39,852 nt of DNA from a virus: IMG/VR virus record IMGVR_UViG_3300034170_000082, positions 1 to 39,852 of that record; one strand, written 5' to 3'. Positions 30,140 to 39,852 of the stretch are shown here, in pieces (the first letter of the stretch is position 1; each line of letters opens with the position of its first letter). Position numbers and translations under genes: made by a program. Below the pieces are notes generated by a model. It was not told where the DNA came from. It was given only the letters and a program-made list of their open reading frames with translations, and did no database searches.

Positions 30140-30481
30140 ATGGCACAGCTGCTGCGCTTCTTCGCGCGCGCCGACCAGCTTGTTCCTTTCCCGGGGTTTT
30201 CTCCGGGTGCTGGACAAGCCGCGTTGTACGTCGGGCGCACATTCGATGCCGGAATCGGCGGATATCCGGCCACGCGCGACGCCGCGGAGTTCGAGCCGGG
30301 CAGCCCGGCTGCTCAGCGGCTGCTCAAAGTCGCTCGCCGCGACGCCTCCTTGTGGCCGGCAGATCAGTTCACCGCGCAGGCGTGCGAACTGCCGTTCGTC
30401 GAACTCGAGTTCAACTCCGGTGAGTACGTCGCGAAAGCGCCGCCCGTCGCCGCCCCCAGCCGGAAAGGGAGTGACTCGTGA
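30140..30481 (+). CDS. Hypothetical protein before the sheath, 113 residues
   Basis: The protein begins MAQLLRFFARADQLVPFPGF and has a short conserved-looking middle (AALYVGRTFDAGIGGYPATR). The first 10 residues are hydrophobic. In Mu-like phages a small gene of this size precedes the sheath. It overlaps the sheath GTG by four bases. Confidence 0.55.
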   Translation: MAQLLRFFARADQLVPFPGFSPGAGQAALYVGRTFDAGIGGYPATRDAAEFEPGSPAAQRLLKVARRDASLWPADQFTAQACELPFVELEFNSGEYVAKAPPVAAPSRKGSDS

Positions 30482-32019
30482 GGTCTCCACTCATCCCGAT
30501 CACGGGCATTGGAGCCGACTTCGTTGTGCCGGGCATGCGCGCAGAGATCCTGTTCGCGCAGGGGCCCGCGAGCGCGGCCGCGTCGGTGCGCGAGGTCTGC
30601 TTCGTGATGCCGAAGACATCGGCTGGGACGTGGACCGCAAACACGCTCTACCGCGTGGGCGCCGAGTCGGTTGCGCGCGATGGCGCCGGCGCCGGCTCTC
30701 CGCTGCACCGAGCTTGCCGCAAGTTCTTGCTGCACAACAAGGACGCGAAGTTGTGGGCAATGCCCTACGCCGCGTCGAGCGGCGGCTCTCCAGTGGCCGC
30801 GACCGGCACCTTCACGGTCACGGGCCCCGCAACCGCGACCGGCACCCTGAGCGCGATCGTGGCGGGCGAACTCTGCCAAGCCAGCTACCCGTCGGCCGCA
30901 ACCGCGACCGTGATCGGTGACCTGATCGTCTCGTCGATCAACGGCAAGGAATACCTGCCGTGCACGGCCGCGAACGCCTCGGGCGTCGTCACGCTGACGG
31001 CCAAGATCGTGGGCGCCTCGCAGGGCACCGCGACCGTCCCGAACATCCGGTACCACGTCGAAGTGACGCAGGGGACTGGTGTTTCGGTCGCCGTGTCCGG
31101 TGCGCATCTCGGGACCGGCGTTGCGGGCGCGGACGGCACCACGACCGAGGCGACCAACCTGGCGACAGCGCTCGGCAACCTCGACATGGTGCGCAAGTAC
31201 TACCTGGGAGTGAGCGTGTTCGACGCCACCAACCTGGGGGCGTTCAAGACGCACATTTCGAACAAGAGCGAGCCGAAACGCGGTTTGCGCTCGGTCGGGA
31301 TTGCGGCCTATCAGGGCACGCTCGCAAGCGGCATCACGCTCGCGACTGGCCGCAACTACGCGCGGCTTCAGTTCGTGTGGCAGCCCAACAGTGAGCACGA
31401 TGCCGCCGAACTGGTGGGCGGGATGGCTGCCATTCGGCAGAAGGAAGAGCAGCGGTACTCCGCCGCGAATCTGAACAACTACCCGACTGGCGACATCTTC
31501 CTGCCCGCCTACTCGACCGCGGACTACCCGGACGAGGACGACCAGAACGACGCCATTCTCGGCGGACTCGCGACGATCGCATCGTCGACCAGCGGCACGC
31601 AGCTGGTCATGTCGACCACGACGCAGTCGAAGAACGCGGGCGGAACCGCGAACGACGGCCGCGCGCGGAAGACCATGAGGGTCAGCGTTTGCGACGAGTT
31701 CGTGGACGATGAGCTCATCGAATACGCCCTGAACTACCAGGGAAAGAAGCTTCGCGACAACGAATACAGCGCCGATGGTCGGGTCAATCCGAACCAGCAA
31801 CTTCCGGCCAACACCATCACACCGAAGTCGTTCGAGGCGCACATCCGCGACCGCATGCGCCGCTATTACGACGACGGGAAGATCGAGAATCTGCAAGCGT
31901 CGCTCGACTCGCTGCGCTGCCTGAAAAACGGCGGACGTCTCGAGACCGGGTTCGACCTCGATGCGGCGGAAGACCTCGACCAGACCACGACCAGGGTCGC
32001 CGAAGTGAGTGAGGGCTGA
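30478..32019 (+). CDS. Contractile tail sheath protein (Mu gpL-like)
   Basis: The 513-residue protein has the sheath layout. It has an N-terminal part with SPLHRACRKFLLHN and DAKLWAMPYA, a beta-rich insertion (TGTFTVTGPATATGTLSAIV), and a C-terminal region with PANTITPKSFEAHIRDRMRR. The GTG 30478 overlaps the previous stop. It wraps the tube and contracts for DNA injection, which defines the phage as a myovirus. It is followed directly by the tube gene. Confidence 0.85.
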   Translation: MRSPLIPITGIGADFVVPGMRAEILFAQGPASAAASVREVCFVMPKTSAGTWTANTLYRVGAESVARDGAGAGSPLHRACRKFLLHNKDAKLWAMPYAASSGGSPVAATGTFTVTGPATATGTLSAIVAGELCQASYPSAATATVIGDLIVSSINGKEYLPCTAANASGVVTLTAKIVGASQGTATVPNIRYHVEVTQGTGVSVAVSGAHLGTGVAGADGTTTEATNLATALGNLDMVRKYYLGVSVFDATNLGAFKTHISNKSEPKRGLRSVGIAAYQGTLASGITLATGRNYARLQFVWQPNSEHDAAELVGGMAAIRQKEEQRYSAANLNNYPTGDIFLPAYSTADYPDEDDQNDAILGGLATIASSTSGTQLVMSTTTQSKNAGGTANDGRARKTMRVSVCDEFVDDELIEYALNYQGKKLRDNEYSADGRVNPNQQLPANTITPKSFEAHIRDRMRRYYDDGKIENLQASLDSLRCLKNGGRLETGFDLDAAEDLDQTTTRVAEVSEG

Positions 32020-32021
32020 CC

Positions 32022-32390
32022 ATGGCTGATTATGCGATCCTCAAGCTGTTCGTGAACGGCTCCCCGTCTACTCAGCACACCTCGCTCGAGAAGAGCACGG
32101 ACGGCGGCCTAAACCCCGTCAACCTGCTCGAGACTGGCCTTGCTGGCTTCACTCCCGGCGGTGGTATGACGACCATCAAAGTCGGCTACGCGATTCCGAT
32201 TGGCGGACCCGAGTTCGACTTCGAGTCAATGAGCGCCAACCGTGAAGATGTCGACATGCAGTTCTGGCAGGGCGGGAAGTCCTACTCAGGACGCGGCAAG
32301 ATCACGGAAGCCAGCGTCTCCCAGTCAGCGAACGCGAACGCCGAAGGCACCGCGACCTGGCTCGGCCCGCTGAAGCCGAACGACGGCTAA
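32022..32390 (+). CDS. Tail tube protein
   Basis: The 122-residue protein begins two bases after the sheath stop and has tube-type beta structure (GFTPGGGMTTIKVGYAIPIG, then EDVDMQFWQGGKSYSGRGKI). The size matches Mu gpM-like tubes. It forms the inner conduit within the sheath. A terminator follows it. Confidence 0.82.
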   Translation: MADYAILKLFVNGSPSTQHTSLEKSTDGGLNPVNLLETGLAGFTPGGGMTTIKVGYAIPIGGPEFDFESMSANREDVDMQFWQGGKSYSGRGKITEASVSQSANANAEGTATWLGPLKPNDG

Positions 32391-32487: not shown

Positions 32488-32499
32488 CAGGGAGAGACT

Positions 32500-33297
32500 T
32501 TGGCCAAACCGCCTCCAGATGTTCCGCCGGACGAACTGTGGCTCAAGCTGAGCGAGCCGGCTCCGTTCGAAGTCTTCGACTTTCCCCGCAAGGGGCCAGA
32601 CGGGAAGCCGCTCGGCCGCGTGCGGATCCATGTGCTCCGGCAAGAGGACCACATCGCGGCGAAGGTCTCGGCACACGCGGCGATCCAGAAGGACGCGGCG
32701 CGGCGCGACATCGAAAAGCTCACGAGAGACGACCTCGAAAGCCCCGGGCTGCAGTCGGCAATCGCTGATCAGATCGCGGTCGAGCTGCTCGCGACTGCGC
32801 TGCACTCAACGAAGCCAATGGCTGGCTCCGAGCACTCGGAGCGGCCGTCGTACCCGCGGCTGTTTTACGGCTCCGAGGACATCCGCAAGAAGCTCTCGGC
32901 GGACGAGATCGCGGTTCTGTTCAGCGCCTACCTGATGACTCAGGCCAAGTACGGCCCCTTCGAGGCGAATCTCGAGCGCGAGGACGTAGAAGCGTGGGTA
33001 CGCCGGCTCGAGGAGGGAGGCAGCAGCTTCCCTTTAGTGCACTTGCCTTGGCCTCAATTGGCCGAGTTAGCGTTCTTGTTGGCGGGAAGGATCTATTCGC
33101 TATCGCGGATCCTGGCATCCCGACGCGAGAGCTTGCCGAGTACTTTGGTGTCCGAGCTCGAGCCTTATTGTATGGCCACCTGCTTCTCTGGCGAGCCTCC
33201 CGCCGCATCAACAAGCACCTCGTGGGAAAGCTCAGCTGAGGCGCTTGCGGCGGCCGTGCGTGTCGCCGAGAAAAACCGCCCTGATTTGAACGACTGA
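32500..33297 (+). CDS. Tail assembly chaperone with a probable -1 frameshift site
   Basis: The zero-frame product has 265 residues from TTG 32500, chosen because AGGGAGA lies just upstream; the next upstream in-frame start lies in the terminator. It starts MAKPPPDVPPDELWLKLSEP. It lies between tube and tape measure, where myophages and siphophages encode G/GT-type chaperones made by -1 frameshifting. CCCTTTA at 33030-33036 is in the correct phase (codons CCT, TTA). After it the zero frame becomes Ser/Thr-rich and less protein-like until near its end. Its stop is five bases before the tape measure ATG. Confidence 0.78.
   Translation: MAKPPPDVPPDELWLKLSEPAPFEVFDFPRKGPDGKPLGRVRIHVLRQEDHIAAKVSAHAAIQKDAARRDIEKLTRDDLESPGLQSAIADQIAVELLATALHSTKPMAGSEHSERPSYPRLFYGSEDIRKKLSADEIAVLFSAYLMTQAKYGPFEANLEREDVEAWVRRLEEGGSSFPLVHLPWPQLAELAFLLAGRIYSLSRILASRRESLPSTLVSELEPYCMATCFSGEPPAASTSTSWESSAEALAAAVRVAEKNRPDLND
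33030..33239 (+). other. Slippery heptamer CCCTTTA and the -1 frame reading
   Basis: The heptamer occupies 33030-33036. A -1 shift there reads 67 codons to a TGA at 33239. This gives a C-terminus with DLFAIADPGIPTRELAEYFG, then RARALLYGHLLLWRASRRIN, a convincing amphipathic helical protein. The shifted product would have about 246 residues. Unlike the usual G/GT pair, the -1 frame ends before the zero frame does. Confidence 0.6.
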
Positions 33298-33302
33298 GCT
33301 CG

Positions 33303-35594
33303 ATGGCAATCCTTCGGTACGAGTACGACATTATTGGACAATCCAAGGTTGCTGCTTCACTGGCGTCGATGGAGCGACTGTTCTCGCAGCACTCCGCTCG
33401 TCTCGGGAGGATGGCTCAGCAGGGTTCGCGCGGCGGATCGCGCGCGACGACGCAGGGCGAGATAGCTTCAGCCGAGCGCGCGGCGACACAGTCTGCCCGA
33501 ACGCGGCAGCGAGAGATTGACCAGCAGGTTCGTTCACAGCTCTCTCTCACGCGGCAACGGGCGCGTGAAGAGCGAGATGCCGAGCGTGCCGCTCTGCAGT
33601 CCACGCGACAGCGCCAGCGCGCCATCGATCAGCAGGTGCGGTCACAGGCCCAGCTCAGCCGGCAGCGCGAGCGTGAAGAGAAGGCCTCGCTCGAAGCCAC
33701 GCGCCAGATCGTTCACGAGCGCCGGCAGTTCGTTCAAGGCACGCTTGGCCGCGGTGTCGGCCGCGTCGTCAACGGGCTCACGGCGGTCGGCAGAGCCGGC
33801 GCCGCCATGGTGGGAATCGGCGGGGCCGCGCTTGCGGCGACGTCTGTGCAGCAGGCGATGTCGCTGGATGATCAGTCGCGGCGACTCGCGATTCAGGGAC
33901 GCGGCGAGGGCCAGGCCGGGGCGAACCCGGACGACCTGCGCAGCGCGTTCGTGCGCACCGGTATCTCCGCCGGAATCGCGCCCGAGCAGGTAGCGGCTGG
34001 CGCAGCAGCGTACGTCCAGCGCACGGGCGATCTGGATACAGCGATGTCCAACCTGGACACGTTTGCCACGACGGCGCAGGCAACCGGCGCCTCGATCGAG
34101 GACGTTGCGCGCGCCGCAGCGGACATGTCGCAGAAGCTCGACATCAAGACTGTCGACGACATGCGGCAAGCGCTCGCGCTGCTCACCGTTCAAGGCAAGC
34201 GCGGCGCGTTCGAGCTCAAGGACATGGCGGTGCAGTTCCCCGAGATGGCCGCCAGCGCCGCAAACGCAGGCGTGCGCGGCGTGCAGGGCGTGCGCGAACT
34301 CGGTGGCATCGCCCAGATCGCCATGCAGGCGACCAAAAGCGGCGCCGAGGCGTCAACCAGCGTTGAAGCAATGTTCCGCCAGTTGCAAGCGAAGTCGGGA
34401 GACATCCAATCCGGAGCGGCTTTCGGCGGGAAAAAGGTCCAGGTTTTCCAAGGCGGCGACGCAAAGAAGCCGATGCGCAACTTCCTCGACGTGATCGGGG
34501 ACGTGATGCAGGCGAGCGGCGGCAACATCGTTCAGCTGCAAGACGTGTTTGACGTCCGCGGCATCCGCGCCGTGAACCCGCTCATCAGCGCGTACCGCAC
34601 TGCCAACCAGGCGGCAGGCGGCGGAAAGAATGGCGACAAGGCTGGTCGCGACGCCATGCAAAAGGTGCTCGAGCCGTTCCTCTCGGCACCGGGCGACTTT
34701 GGCGAGATTCAGCGCGACTCGCGCGACGCCATGAAGTCGATGAGCGTTCAGGTCGAGATCCTGAACAACAAGCTCAAGAAGGCCATCGCGAGCGAACTGT
34801 TCCCCGCGGTAGAGCGGGTGGTCCCCCATCTGGTCGAGCTCATTCCGACGGTTGCCGGGGTCGCGAAAGCGTTCATCGGCCTAGTCGACTGGCTCGCGTC
34901 GAACCCTCTCTCTGGGCTCGGAATCGCGGTCGCCGCGTCAATCGCATACGAGCTCGCGAAGGCGCGCGTGGGCGCCGTTGTCGCCGCGGTGCTCGCTGCC
35001 ATTCTGCGTCAGCGCGGGGGCGGCGGCGGTATCCCGACCGCACCAGGCTCTCCCGCTCCTGGCGGCGGCGGCGGCGGGTTCTTCGGCAGGCCTACCGCTT
35101 CTGGCGCGCTGGGCGCCGTCGGGACCGGACTCGCGCTCGGCGCGGGCGTCGCCGCCGGCATCTACGCCGGCGGCGTCATGGACTACAACACACGCGAGGC
35201 GAGCATGAATGCACAGGGCGATGCCCTCGCGAGCGTGCGGAACCTCACGGGCGCCGGCGACGCAGGCGCAGCCAGAGAGGCCGTCCAAGCGCAGCGCCGA
35301 CGCGTGCAAGAGCTCCAGAACGTCGGTGTTTTCGACGCGGTCGGCGAGGGCGCCTATCACCTGATTGGTGGCGGGCCCACGCAGCGCGAGGTCGAGCTCA
35401 ATACCGCGAAGAGCTTCCTCGACGAAATGGAAGGGCGGCTTAAGGCGCTCGACAGCCTCAAGGACCTGGCGGACAAGCTCGCGCAAGCGGGAACCTCACA
35501 GAAAGAGGCGGCCGAGCTCACCAAGAAGGCCGCCGAGCGGCTGGGGCTCGTGCCGAACCGCTCCGATTCACCGAGCTCACCCGTCAAGGGATAG
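33303..35594 (+). CDS. Tape measure protein
   Basis: The 763-residue protein is the longest in the tail block after the chaperone. It is helical with a long Arg/Gln/Glu coiled coil at ~50-140 that holds a two-fold repeat (TRQREIDQQVRSQ and TRQRQRAIDQQVRSQ). Hydrophobic segments are near 150-180, 535-568 and 600-625, with Gly-rich linkers around 570-600. It sets tail length. At about 1.5 angstrom per residue the tail would be roughly 110 nm. The ATG is five bases after the chaperone stop. Confidence 0.88.
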   Translation: MAILRYEYDIIGQSKVAASLASMERLFSQHSARLGRMAQQGSRGGSRATTQGEIASAERAATQSARTRQREIDQQVRSQLSLTRQRAREERDAERAALQSTRQRQRAIDQQVRSQAQLSRQREREEKASLEATRQIVHERRQFVQGTLGRGVGRVVNGLTAVGRAGAAMVGIGGAALAATSVQQAMSLDDQSRRLAIQGRGEGQAGANPDDLRSAFVRTGISAGIAPEQVAAGAAAYVQRTGDLDTAMSNLDTFATTAQATGASIEDVARAAADMSQKLDIKTVDDMRQALALLTVQGKRGAFELKDMAVQFPEMAASAANAGVRGVQGVRELGGIAQIAMQATKSGAEASTSVEAMFRQLQAKSGDIQSGAAFGGKKVQVFQGGDAKKPMRNFLDVIGDVMQASGGNIVQLQDVFDVRGIRAVNPLISAYRTANQAAGGGKNGDKAGRDAMQKVLEPFLSAPGDFGEIQRDSRDAMKSMSVQVEILNNKLKKAIASELFPAVERVVPHLVELIPTVAGVAKAFIGLVDWLASNPLSGLGIAVAASIAYELAKARVGAVVAAVLAAILRQRGGGGGIPTAPGSPAPGGGGGGFFGRPTASGALGAVGTGLALGAGVAAGIYAGGVMDYNTREASMNAQGDALASVRNLTGAGDAGAAREAVQAQRRRVQELQNVGVFDAVGEGAYHLIGGGPTQREVELNTAKSFLDEMEGRLKALDSLKDLADKLAQAGTSQKEAAELTKKAAERLGLVPNRSDSPSSPVKG

Positions 35595-38286: not shown

Positions 38287-38937
38287 GTGTCCGAACTCGA
38301 CATCGCGATCCTAGGAGCCGCCAAGCTCGACGAGCATTCGGCCGAGCTCTGGCAGACGATCGTCGCGGTGACGGATGCCGAGAACGACGTCGAGAACCTT
38401 GGCGAGTGCCAAGTCTACCAGGCGCTCGGCGTCACCTCTCTGCCCTACCCGAAGGACTCGCGCGGCTACGCGGAGGCGCTCATCGTGCGCAACGCTGGCG
38501 GCAGAAGCTGCGTGGCTGTGGGCGCGCGCGACACGCGTTCGAAGGTCGCCGCCGGGCTAGCGCAGGGCGATGTCTGCCTGCATGCCACGGGGCCCGAGGA
38601 GGCCGCCCAGGTGCGGTGCCTCGAGAAGAAACGCACGGTGGTCGCCATCACGCGCGACAGCGCGGGCGACTCGATGGCGGTCATCCTCGACGGCAAGCGC
38701 GACACCATCCAAATCATCGGCCGCGGCGCGGTCATCGAGATCGCAAAAAACGGCGACATCAACCTCACGGGCAGGAGCGCCGGGATCATGATCCAGGGCG
38801 GAGACATCATCCTGAACGGCACCGTGCGGCTCGCCGGCATGGCCCCCGGCATGGTGCTCATGCAGGGCCCGCCGAGCGGGTCGCCAGGCGGCCCCGCGTC
38901 GGTGCCGCTCATGCCGGTGCTCGGGGTCGGCAAATGA
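38287..38937 (+). CDS. Baseplate spike protein (Mu gp45-like)
   Basis: The 216-residue protein has an N-terminal OB-like part (GECQVYQALGVTSLPYPKDS) and a C-terminal beta-helix (RDTIQIIGRGAVIEIAKNGD, INLTGRSAGIMIQGGDIILN), the fold of membrane-piercing spikes. It follows the hub, as in Mu. No metal-binding HxH tip is visible. The start is GTG 38287. Confidence 0.82.
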   Translation: MSELDIAILGAAKLDEHSAELWQTIVAVTDAENDVENLGECQVYQALGVTSLPYPKDSRGYAEALIVRNAGGRSCVAVGARDTRSKVAAGLAQGDVCLHATGPEEAAQVRCLEKKRTVVAITRDSAGDSMAVILDGKRDTIQIIGRGAVIEIAKNGDINLTGRSAGIMIQGGDIILNGTVRLAGMAPGMVLMQGPPSGSPGGPASVPLMPVLGVGK

Positions 38938-39482
38938 CTTGTGCTGTGGCTATACGACACGGCGGGCGCGTCTACATGGGCGTCGACTCGCGATGGGTGA
39001 CCGGTGACGGTTCAATCTGTTATTCCGCGATGCCCAAGCTTTGGACGGCTTCAACGAAGGCTGGAGGCCAGGTAGCTGTAGCGTCAGCCGGCGGCTCGAA
39101 TGTTGCGCAGCTTGCGCGCCTCGCCGTGGACTGGTCAGTCATAGACGACTCAGGCCCGCTTGAACTGCTGGAGCGGTCGATCGCCGTGGGCATCGTTGCC
39201 CAGCTTCGAGACGCAATCCCAAAGATTGACGAGCAGCGAGGAACCCTGCTGGTCGGTGTGAGCGGTCGGATATTCGAGGTCCAGATCGGCGCCGCGATCC
39301 AGGCAGATGAGTTCCTGGACAGCTACTCATCGATCGGATCCGGGTGGCAGACCGCGGCCGGCTCATTGTTCGAGACGGCGGTCACCATGCCGGACGAACC
39401 CATGCTCCGGGTCGAGCGGGCATTGTTGGCGGCAAGCTACGTGCACAGCGATGTCGCGCCGCCCTTCCACTTCGCGAGCTGA
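38934..39482 (+). CDS. Proteasome-like/HslV-like Ntn hydrolase
   Basis: The 182-residue protein matches the proteasome beta-subunit fold: MTCAVAIRHGGRVYMGVDSR, with Thr2 as the likely nucleophile after Met removal, D18, and K35 in MPKLW. Later parts include GTLLVGVSGRIFEVQIGA and SSIGSGWQTAAGSLFE. These fit proteasome-like proteases carried by some phages. It overlaps the spike stop by ATGA, so it is expressed with the baseplate genes. The substrate is unknown; processing of a tail protein is one possibility. Confidence 0.8.
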   Translation: MTCAVAIRHGGRVYMGVDSRWVTGDGSICYSAMPKLWTASTKAGGQVAVASAGGSNVAQLARLAVDWSVIDDSGPLELLERSIAVGIVAQLRDAIPKIDEQRGTLLVGVSGRIFEVQIGAAIQADEFLDSYSSIGSGWQTAAGSLFETAVTMPDEPMLRVERALLAASYVHSDVAPPFHFAS

Positions 39483-39484
39483 CG

Positions 39485-39802
39485 GTGTGCAACTTCAAGC
39501 TGCCGCGTCCGTCTCTCCAGGTTCCGGCGCTGCCGTCCCTGTCTATCCCGCGCCTGACGCGCTTTTCACCGCCTGACCTAGGCATCCCAGGCCTGCGCTT
39601 CCGGGCGCCGTCTCCGGGGCTCCTGGTGCCAGGGCTGCCCATCCCGGCAATCCCTCGGCTCACCCCGCCAACGGCTCCTGACCTGGGTATCCCGGGCTCG
39701 CGCTTCCGCTTGCCGCGGCCGGCGCTGCCCATCCCGGCAATCCCAATTCCGAAAATCCCGCGGCTCACGCCGCCGACCGTCGAGTGCCCCCTGAAGAGCT
39801 GA
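39485..39802 (+). CDS. Pro-rich repeat protein, 105 residues
   Basis: From GTG 39485 the sequence is MCNFKLPRPSLQVPALPSLS and then repeated IPxIPRLTPPTAPDLGIPG and RFRLPRPALPIPAIPIP units, ending CPLKS. The pattern x-P-x with period 3 should give extended polyproline helices. A 21-base sequence is repeated exactly at 39634-39654 and 39724-39744. Similar short Pro-rich proteins ending in CPL occur near phage spikes. Function is unknown. Confidence 0.65.
   Translation: MCNFKLPRPSLQVPALPSLSIPRLTRFSPPDLGIPGLRFRAPSPGLLVPGLPIPAIPRLTPPTAPDLGIPGSRFRLPRPALPIPAIPIPKIPRLTPPTVECPLKS
39634..39744 (+). repeat. 90-bp-period direct repeat in the Pro-rich gene
   Basis: The 21 bases beginning GCTGCCCATCCCGGC are identical at 39634 and 39724. 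The preceding segments (39572 and 39674 onward, CCTGACCT-G) are also similar. The repeat is in frame and duplicates a Pro-rich unit. Confidence 0.75.
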
Positions 39803-39803
39803 C

Positions 39804-39852
39804 ATGAGCGGAGCTGGAAACATGCGCGCTGGGCTGGGCCCGTGCGGACTGG
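39804..39852 (+). CDS. Start of a gene cut by the right edge
   Basis: ATG 39804 follows the previous stop by one base. The visible part reads MSGAGNMRAGLGPCGL. Position after spike genes suggests a baseplate wedge protein such as Mu gp46, but 16 residues do not prove this. Confidence 0.45.
   Translation, partial: MSGAGNMRAGLGPCGL

Follow-up and report, generated by a model that had tools for sequence, protein, structure and literature searches.

Conserved, overlapping alternative tails suggest programmed -1 frameshifting in a phage tail assembly chaperone

In the described G/GT systems of phage tail assembly, the zero frame ends right past the slip site, so that the frameshifted fusion carries an extra domain. 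A virus record of IMG/VR comprising 39,852 bases, the whole of which is referred to here as the window, raises the question of whether a chaperone gene may be frameshifted in the same way when the shifted reading ends first. The initial annotation had proposed a -1 slip in a tail assembly chaperone located between the tube and tape measure genes, with a shifted product shorter than the unshifted one.

The candidate gene occupies positions 32500..33297 on the + strand. It starts with a TTG codon at 32500, a start set by comparison with homologues and preceded by a GGGAGA Shine-Dalgarno sequence at 32490-32495, and its zero-frame stop codon (33295-33297) delimits a product of 265 aa. Upstream lies a gene for a Mu gpL-like tail sheath (30478..32019, +; phrog_165, E 1e-52; 54% identity to the gpL-like protein of MW202476), followed by the probable tail tube gene (32022..32390, +), which yielded no family match in Pfam or PHROGs and is assigned by its position, which corresponds to that of the Mu tube between the sheath and chaperone genes. 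The tape measure gene follows downstream (33303..35594, +; PF10145, E 3e-16; phrog_28, E 7e-28). The order sheath, tube, chaperone and tape measure places the gene where G/GT-type frameshifts are located. Among the relatives described below, a sheath upstream and a tape measure protein downstream were confirmed in those sampled by profile, and a long ORF is similarly placed downstream of the chaperone in most of the others; the downstream ORFs of two loci (L005 and L045) gave no PHROG match at 1e-5.

Two further features were observed near the end of the window. The later part of an ORF located after the baseplate genes (38406-39482, +; ..MTCAVAIRHGGRVYMGVDSRW..) resembles a proteasome/HslV-type peptidase by eye, while the ORF has no Pfam match at E 0.01. 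Directly past the baseplate region, positions 39382-39852 of the + strand encode a repetitive protein rich in Pro, Ile and Leu (..LPSLSIPRLTRFSPPDLGIPGLRF..).

Neither frame of the candidate gene gives a significant match in Pfam or PHROGs; a single member of the family matched Phage_TAC_14, with an E of just 0.2. A PDB sequence search identified no relative. The family is absent from both Pfam and PHROGs. The zero-frame product was modelled with AlphaFold2 from 15 homologues (pLDDT 77.7). The best solved match to the model is 2ob9, the tail assembly chaperone of HK97 (Z 8.9 over 105 residues, model residues 6-149), and the second is YqbN (3klu; Z 7.2), all other chains scoring Z <=3.5. The Foldseek E-values are not significant, and the fold is as such assigned as a match at model level; the weak matches among predicted viral proteins include many chaperones, Mu FS-gp41 among them. 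The chaperone domain would end near residue 150-175, and is taken here as about residues 1-175. Predicted fold and gene order together argue strongly for a tail assembly chaperone in the position initially proposed.

The putative slip site, C CCT TTA, is located at 33030..33036 on the + strand in the context ..TTC CCT TTA GTG... Position 33030 is the third position of a zero-frame codon, so that the heptamer reads X XXY YYZ over codons 178-179, phased for a -1 slip as originally noted. CCCTTTA occurs once on the + strand of this 65% GC window, with one further match on the - strand. The 13 window genes contain eight in-phase heptamers that fit X XXY YYZ, whatever their bases, and phase alone is therefore weak evidence. 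The TTA codon is rare, accounting for 2/298 Leu codons in the window genes and 5/417 upstream of the slip site in the 26 chaperone genes compared below.

A slip at this site is predicted to join the zero-frame residues ..SSFPL to SALAL.. of the -1 frame, the junction of the shifted product spanning ..GGSSFPLSALALASIGR... The -1 frame tail (33036..33239, +) comprises 67 codons and a stop codon at 33237-33239, giving a shifted product of 246 aa. The zero-frame tail (33037..33297, +) comprises 86 codons and a stop codon; as far as 33239 it shares its DNA with the -1 tail, and beyond this point only the zero frame is coding. The shifted product is as such the shorter one, 246 against 265 aa, and the reversed geometry of the initial annotation is borne out.

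Loci beyond MW202476, described below, were identified through profiles. Searches for close relatives in viral and genome collections with the single zero-frame protein, or with a two-sequence profile, found none; the working queries were a profile of the -1 tail and, later, a 15-row zero-frame profile, with which viral contigs were scanned independently. After removal of near-copies and with the window counted in, 26 distinct loci were retained. One candidate (L008) was dropped as a chance match to an unrelated ORF, and two contigs (L006 and L007, from the different samples 3300006847 and 3300050510) are identical across their shared 7.7 kb. The heptamer is in phase in 26/26 loci, as CCCTTTA in 24 and as CCCTTTC (L029) and CCCTTTT (L040) in one each. 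Both variants are still slippery, which indicates that slipperiness is kept where the sequence varies, and conservation across 26 distinct loci excludes a chance origin of the arrangement. The -1 stop precedes the zero-frame stop in every locus, by 49-190 nt, with both frames open. Counted from the Pro codon of the slip site, the zero frame extends over 87-132 codons; product sizes range from 253 to 303 aa (zero frame) and from 230 to 257 aa (-1 frame). All of the loci added by the zero-frame profile, for which the -1 tail was not demanded, retain that tail.

The sole annotated relative is MW202476, which derives from an uncultured Manatee Spring phage. It shares the same heptamer, with 42% identity in the zero frame and 53% in the -1 tail. 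Its chaperone is listed as one zero-frame hypothetical protein, without a -1 product. Although titled Siphoviridae sp., it encodes a Mu-like contractile sheath (MW202476.1 73981-75540; L002:724-2283) and is probably a myovirus. It further carries an extra ORF of 58 aa between tube and chaperone (L002:2816-2992), which the window lacks. Annotation tools that expect a close zero-frame stop are likely to miss genes of this kind.

If the two frames were both of use to the virus, selection should be visible in both where they overlap. Codon-based comparison of the relatives, proposed in the initial annotation, found both frames conserved, and in none of the 26 loci is the zero frame kept while the -1 frame is broken. 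Upstream of the slip site, divergence at zero-frame codon positions one, two and three follows the ordinary pattern (.40/.34/.58), which returns past the -1 stop (.53/.46/.67). Within the overlap (.35/.45/.41) the peak is less pronounced and falls on the wobble base of the -1 frame. The fraction of differing codons for identical residues is.511 upstream and.606 after the overlap, while within it values of.376 (zero frame) and.351 (-1 frame) were obtained. The overlap is lower in 11/13 (zero) and 12/13 (-1) disjoint pairs (Fisher 3e-8 and 5e-15), and relatedness is controlled because the same pairs were used throughout. Shuffling of synonymous codons with one protein left unchanged introduced on average 43 stop codons into the -1 frame, or 24 into the zero frame, where 0 are observed; the BLOSUM mean of the untouched frame dropped to.44 (2.42 observed) or.26 (1.66 observed). 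These shuffles, first run on 14 loci, ignore relatedness and are of supporting value only. By codon statistics and shuffles alike the alternative frame is conserved as protein, and the three tests agree that, at the level of sequence comparison, both frames of the overlap are under selection.

It could nevertheless be argued that the -1 fusion alone is of importance, the zero-frame extension being neutral and persisting only for want of a stop codon. Constraint and composition do favor the -1 frame in the overlap, where GC content by codon position is.66/.51/.54 when read as -1 and.51/.54/.66 when read as zero frame, and identity is slightly lower in the zero frame (.427) than in the -1 frame (.469). 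Against this, the overlap zero frame has no stop codon in any of the 26 loci, compared with the shuffle mean of 24, and the -1 wobble position is more constrained than normal third positions (.45 vs.58). Past the -1 stop, moreover, the zero-frame codon signature returns, and the zero-frame tail ends in many members in a conserved short predicted helix (..T.EDA..LA..). We consider a neutral extension very unlikely. The zero frame does continue, for 86 codons past TTA, but the "odd composition" remarked upon in the initial annotation belongs to a conserved tail rather than to junk. That this extension would itself be under selection, giving two alternative tails, was not foreseen in the initial annotation, whose interpretation is otherwise supported. 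The better fit of the overlap composition to the -1 frame hints that the zero-frame tail may have been overprinted later than the -1 tail.

Upstream of the slip site, a Shine-Dalgarno-like GGAGGG (33012..33017, +) is located 12 nt 5' of the heptamer, and is found in 24/26 distinct loci, mostly at this same distance; it is absent from L029 and L031, and is partly a consequence of Glu-Gly codons. The spacing falls inside the range of 9-14 nt published for -1-stimulating Shine-Dalgarno sequences (PMC5009743), and GGAGGG is likely to act as a -1 stimulator. A downstream RNA stimulator was sought without a conserved structure being found (consensus -1.6 kcal/mol; single-sequence z 0 to -1.6).

The same GGAGGG could alternatively serve as a ribosome binding site, with the -1 tail produced as a separate small protein by internal initiation and without any fusion, and the window does contain a -1 frame GTG at 32994. 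In nine of the 26 loci, however, the -1 frame stretch that runs from the preceding stop to the heptamer contains no ATG, GTG or TTG, and in four this stretch is only 6 codons long. A fusion generated by slipping is therefore the best explanation of the -1 tail. Conservation in the -1 frame furthermore begins at the heptamer itself (Pro-Phe), and the variant heptamers remain slippery. Internal initiation appears highly implausible. Joining of the frames by transcriptional slippage or sequencing error, for which nothing specific speaks, can be dismissed as a negligible prospect, as the same arrangement recurs across many samples, in 26 separate contigs, and CCCTTTA contains no long homopolymer run.

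Taken together, gene position, predicted fold, the invariably slippery heptamer, conservation in both frames and the unvarying succession of the two stop codons support the proposed -1 frameshift. The gene is best explained, with a probability which we place at roughly 0.88, as a G/GT-type chaperone subject to programmed -1 ribosomal frameshifting, with two conserved alternative tails encoded on a dual-coding segment. All ribosomes would translate the chaperone domain. The Pro-tRNA in the P site and the Leu-tRNA in the A site at C CCT TTA would re-pair one base back on CCC TTT, a slip probably aided by pairing of the 16S rRNA to GGAGGG. Slipping ribosomes would add the 67-residue tail and stop, releasing the 246 aa product, while those that do not slip would read an 86-residue tail from the shared DNA, terminating shortly ahead of the tape measure gene and releasing the 265 aa product. 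If the parallel with lambda gpG/gpGT holds, the common domain may coat the tape measure protein and the rarer -1 tail may recruit the tube; the common product would here also bear its own conserved tail, ending in the short predicted helix. The initial annotation described the -1 frame as a convincing helix-rich tail; its conservation is upheld, but it is only partly helical in a model of low confidence (pLDDT 55).

We suggest, with somewhat better than even confidence, that these are two functional and mutually exclusive C-terminal tails, overprinted on one another, with the slip rate setting their ratio and the zero-frame tail performing a tail-assembly function of its own. As a working guess, the latter might modulate the seating of the common chaperone on the tape measure protein, so that the slip rate would fix the ratio of the two tails. 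The long, conserved and overlapping readings indicate that the G/GT design is not fixed. The family offers a clean test case for the role of the C-terminus of the common product, as well as an instance of natural overprinting in which selection on both frames can be measured.

Among the known frameshift systems, the predicted one most resembles those of the lambda gpG/gpGT and HK97 gp13 type, with which it shares the gene order, a -1 slip at an X XXY YYZ site, an alternative tail after the chaperone domain and an adjoining tape measure gene; the HK97 chaperone (2ob9) is also the best structural match of the model. In lambda, according to PMC5009743, the tape measure protein is bound by gpG and the tube by the T part of gpGT, the longer of the two products being the shifted one. 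In the window it is the unshifted product that exceeds the other in length, with a conserved tail of its own. Mu gp41/FS-gp41 shares the order of sheath, tube, chaperone and tape measure, and FS-gp41 is among the weak structural matches, but the Mu shift is -2, its zero frame ends ~24 nt past the slip site and its shifted product is longer (188 vs 144 aa). P2 gpE/E+E' shares the -1 shift, the contractile tail and the gene position, and differs in a zero frame ending ~20 nt past the slip site. A faint motif resemblance between the P2 and window -1 tails (DVA..F..PP.EL / ELA.YF.V.PR.LL) is not significant; homology of the -1 tail to P2 GpE, suspected by eye, obtained no significant profile support and nothing from Pfam, and profile comparison with the P2 and Mu tails revealed no convincing similarity. 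A mean of 26 nt from slip site to zero-frame stop is given for the SEA-PHAGES chaperones, as the PRFect training mean (PMC10885494), compared with ~260 nt in the window. A zero frame ending soon after the slip, with a longer shifted product, is found in none of the 26 loci; this trait is typical of the G/GT type rather than strictly defining, and a long zero frame ending past the -1 stop makes the family a variant of that type and not an ordinary member. A search of the mostly open-access literature found no report of a tail chaperone with a shorter shifted product. A -1 product shorter than the normal one is shared with dnaX, copA and A2 cro, which are unrelated in gene and function and for which the available portion of PMC5009743 describes no role in tail assembly. 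These frameshifts also have in common with the window a Shine-Dalgarno-like stimulator 5' of the shift site, at 10 nt in the case studied there.
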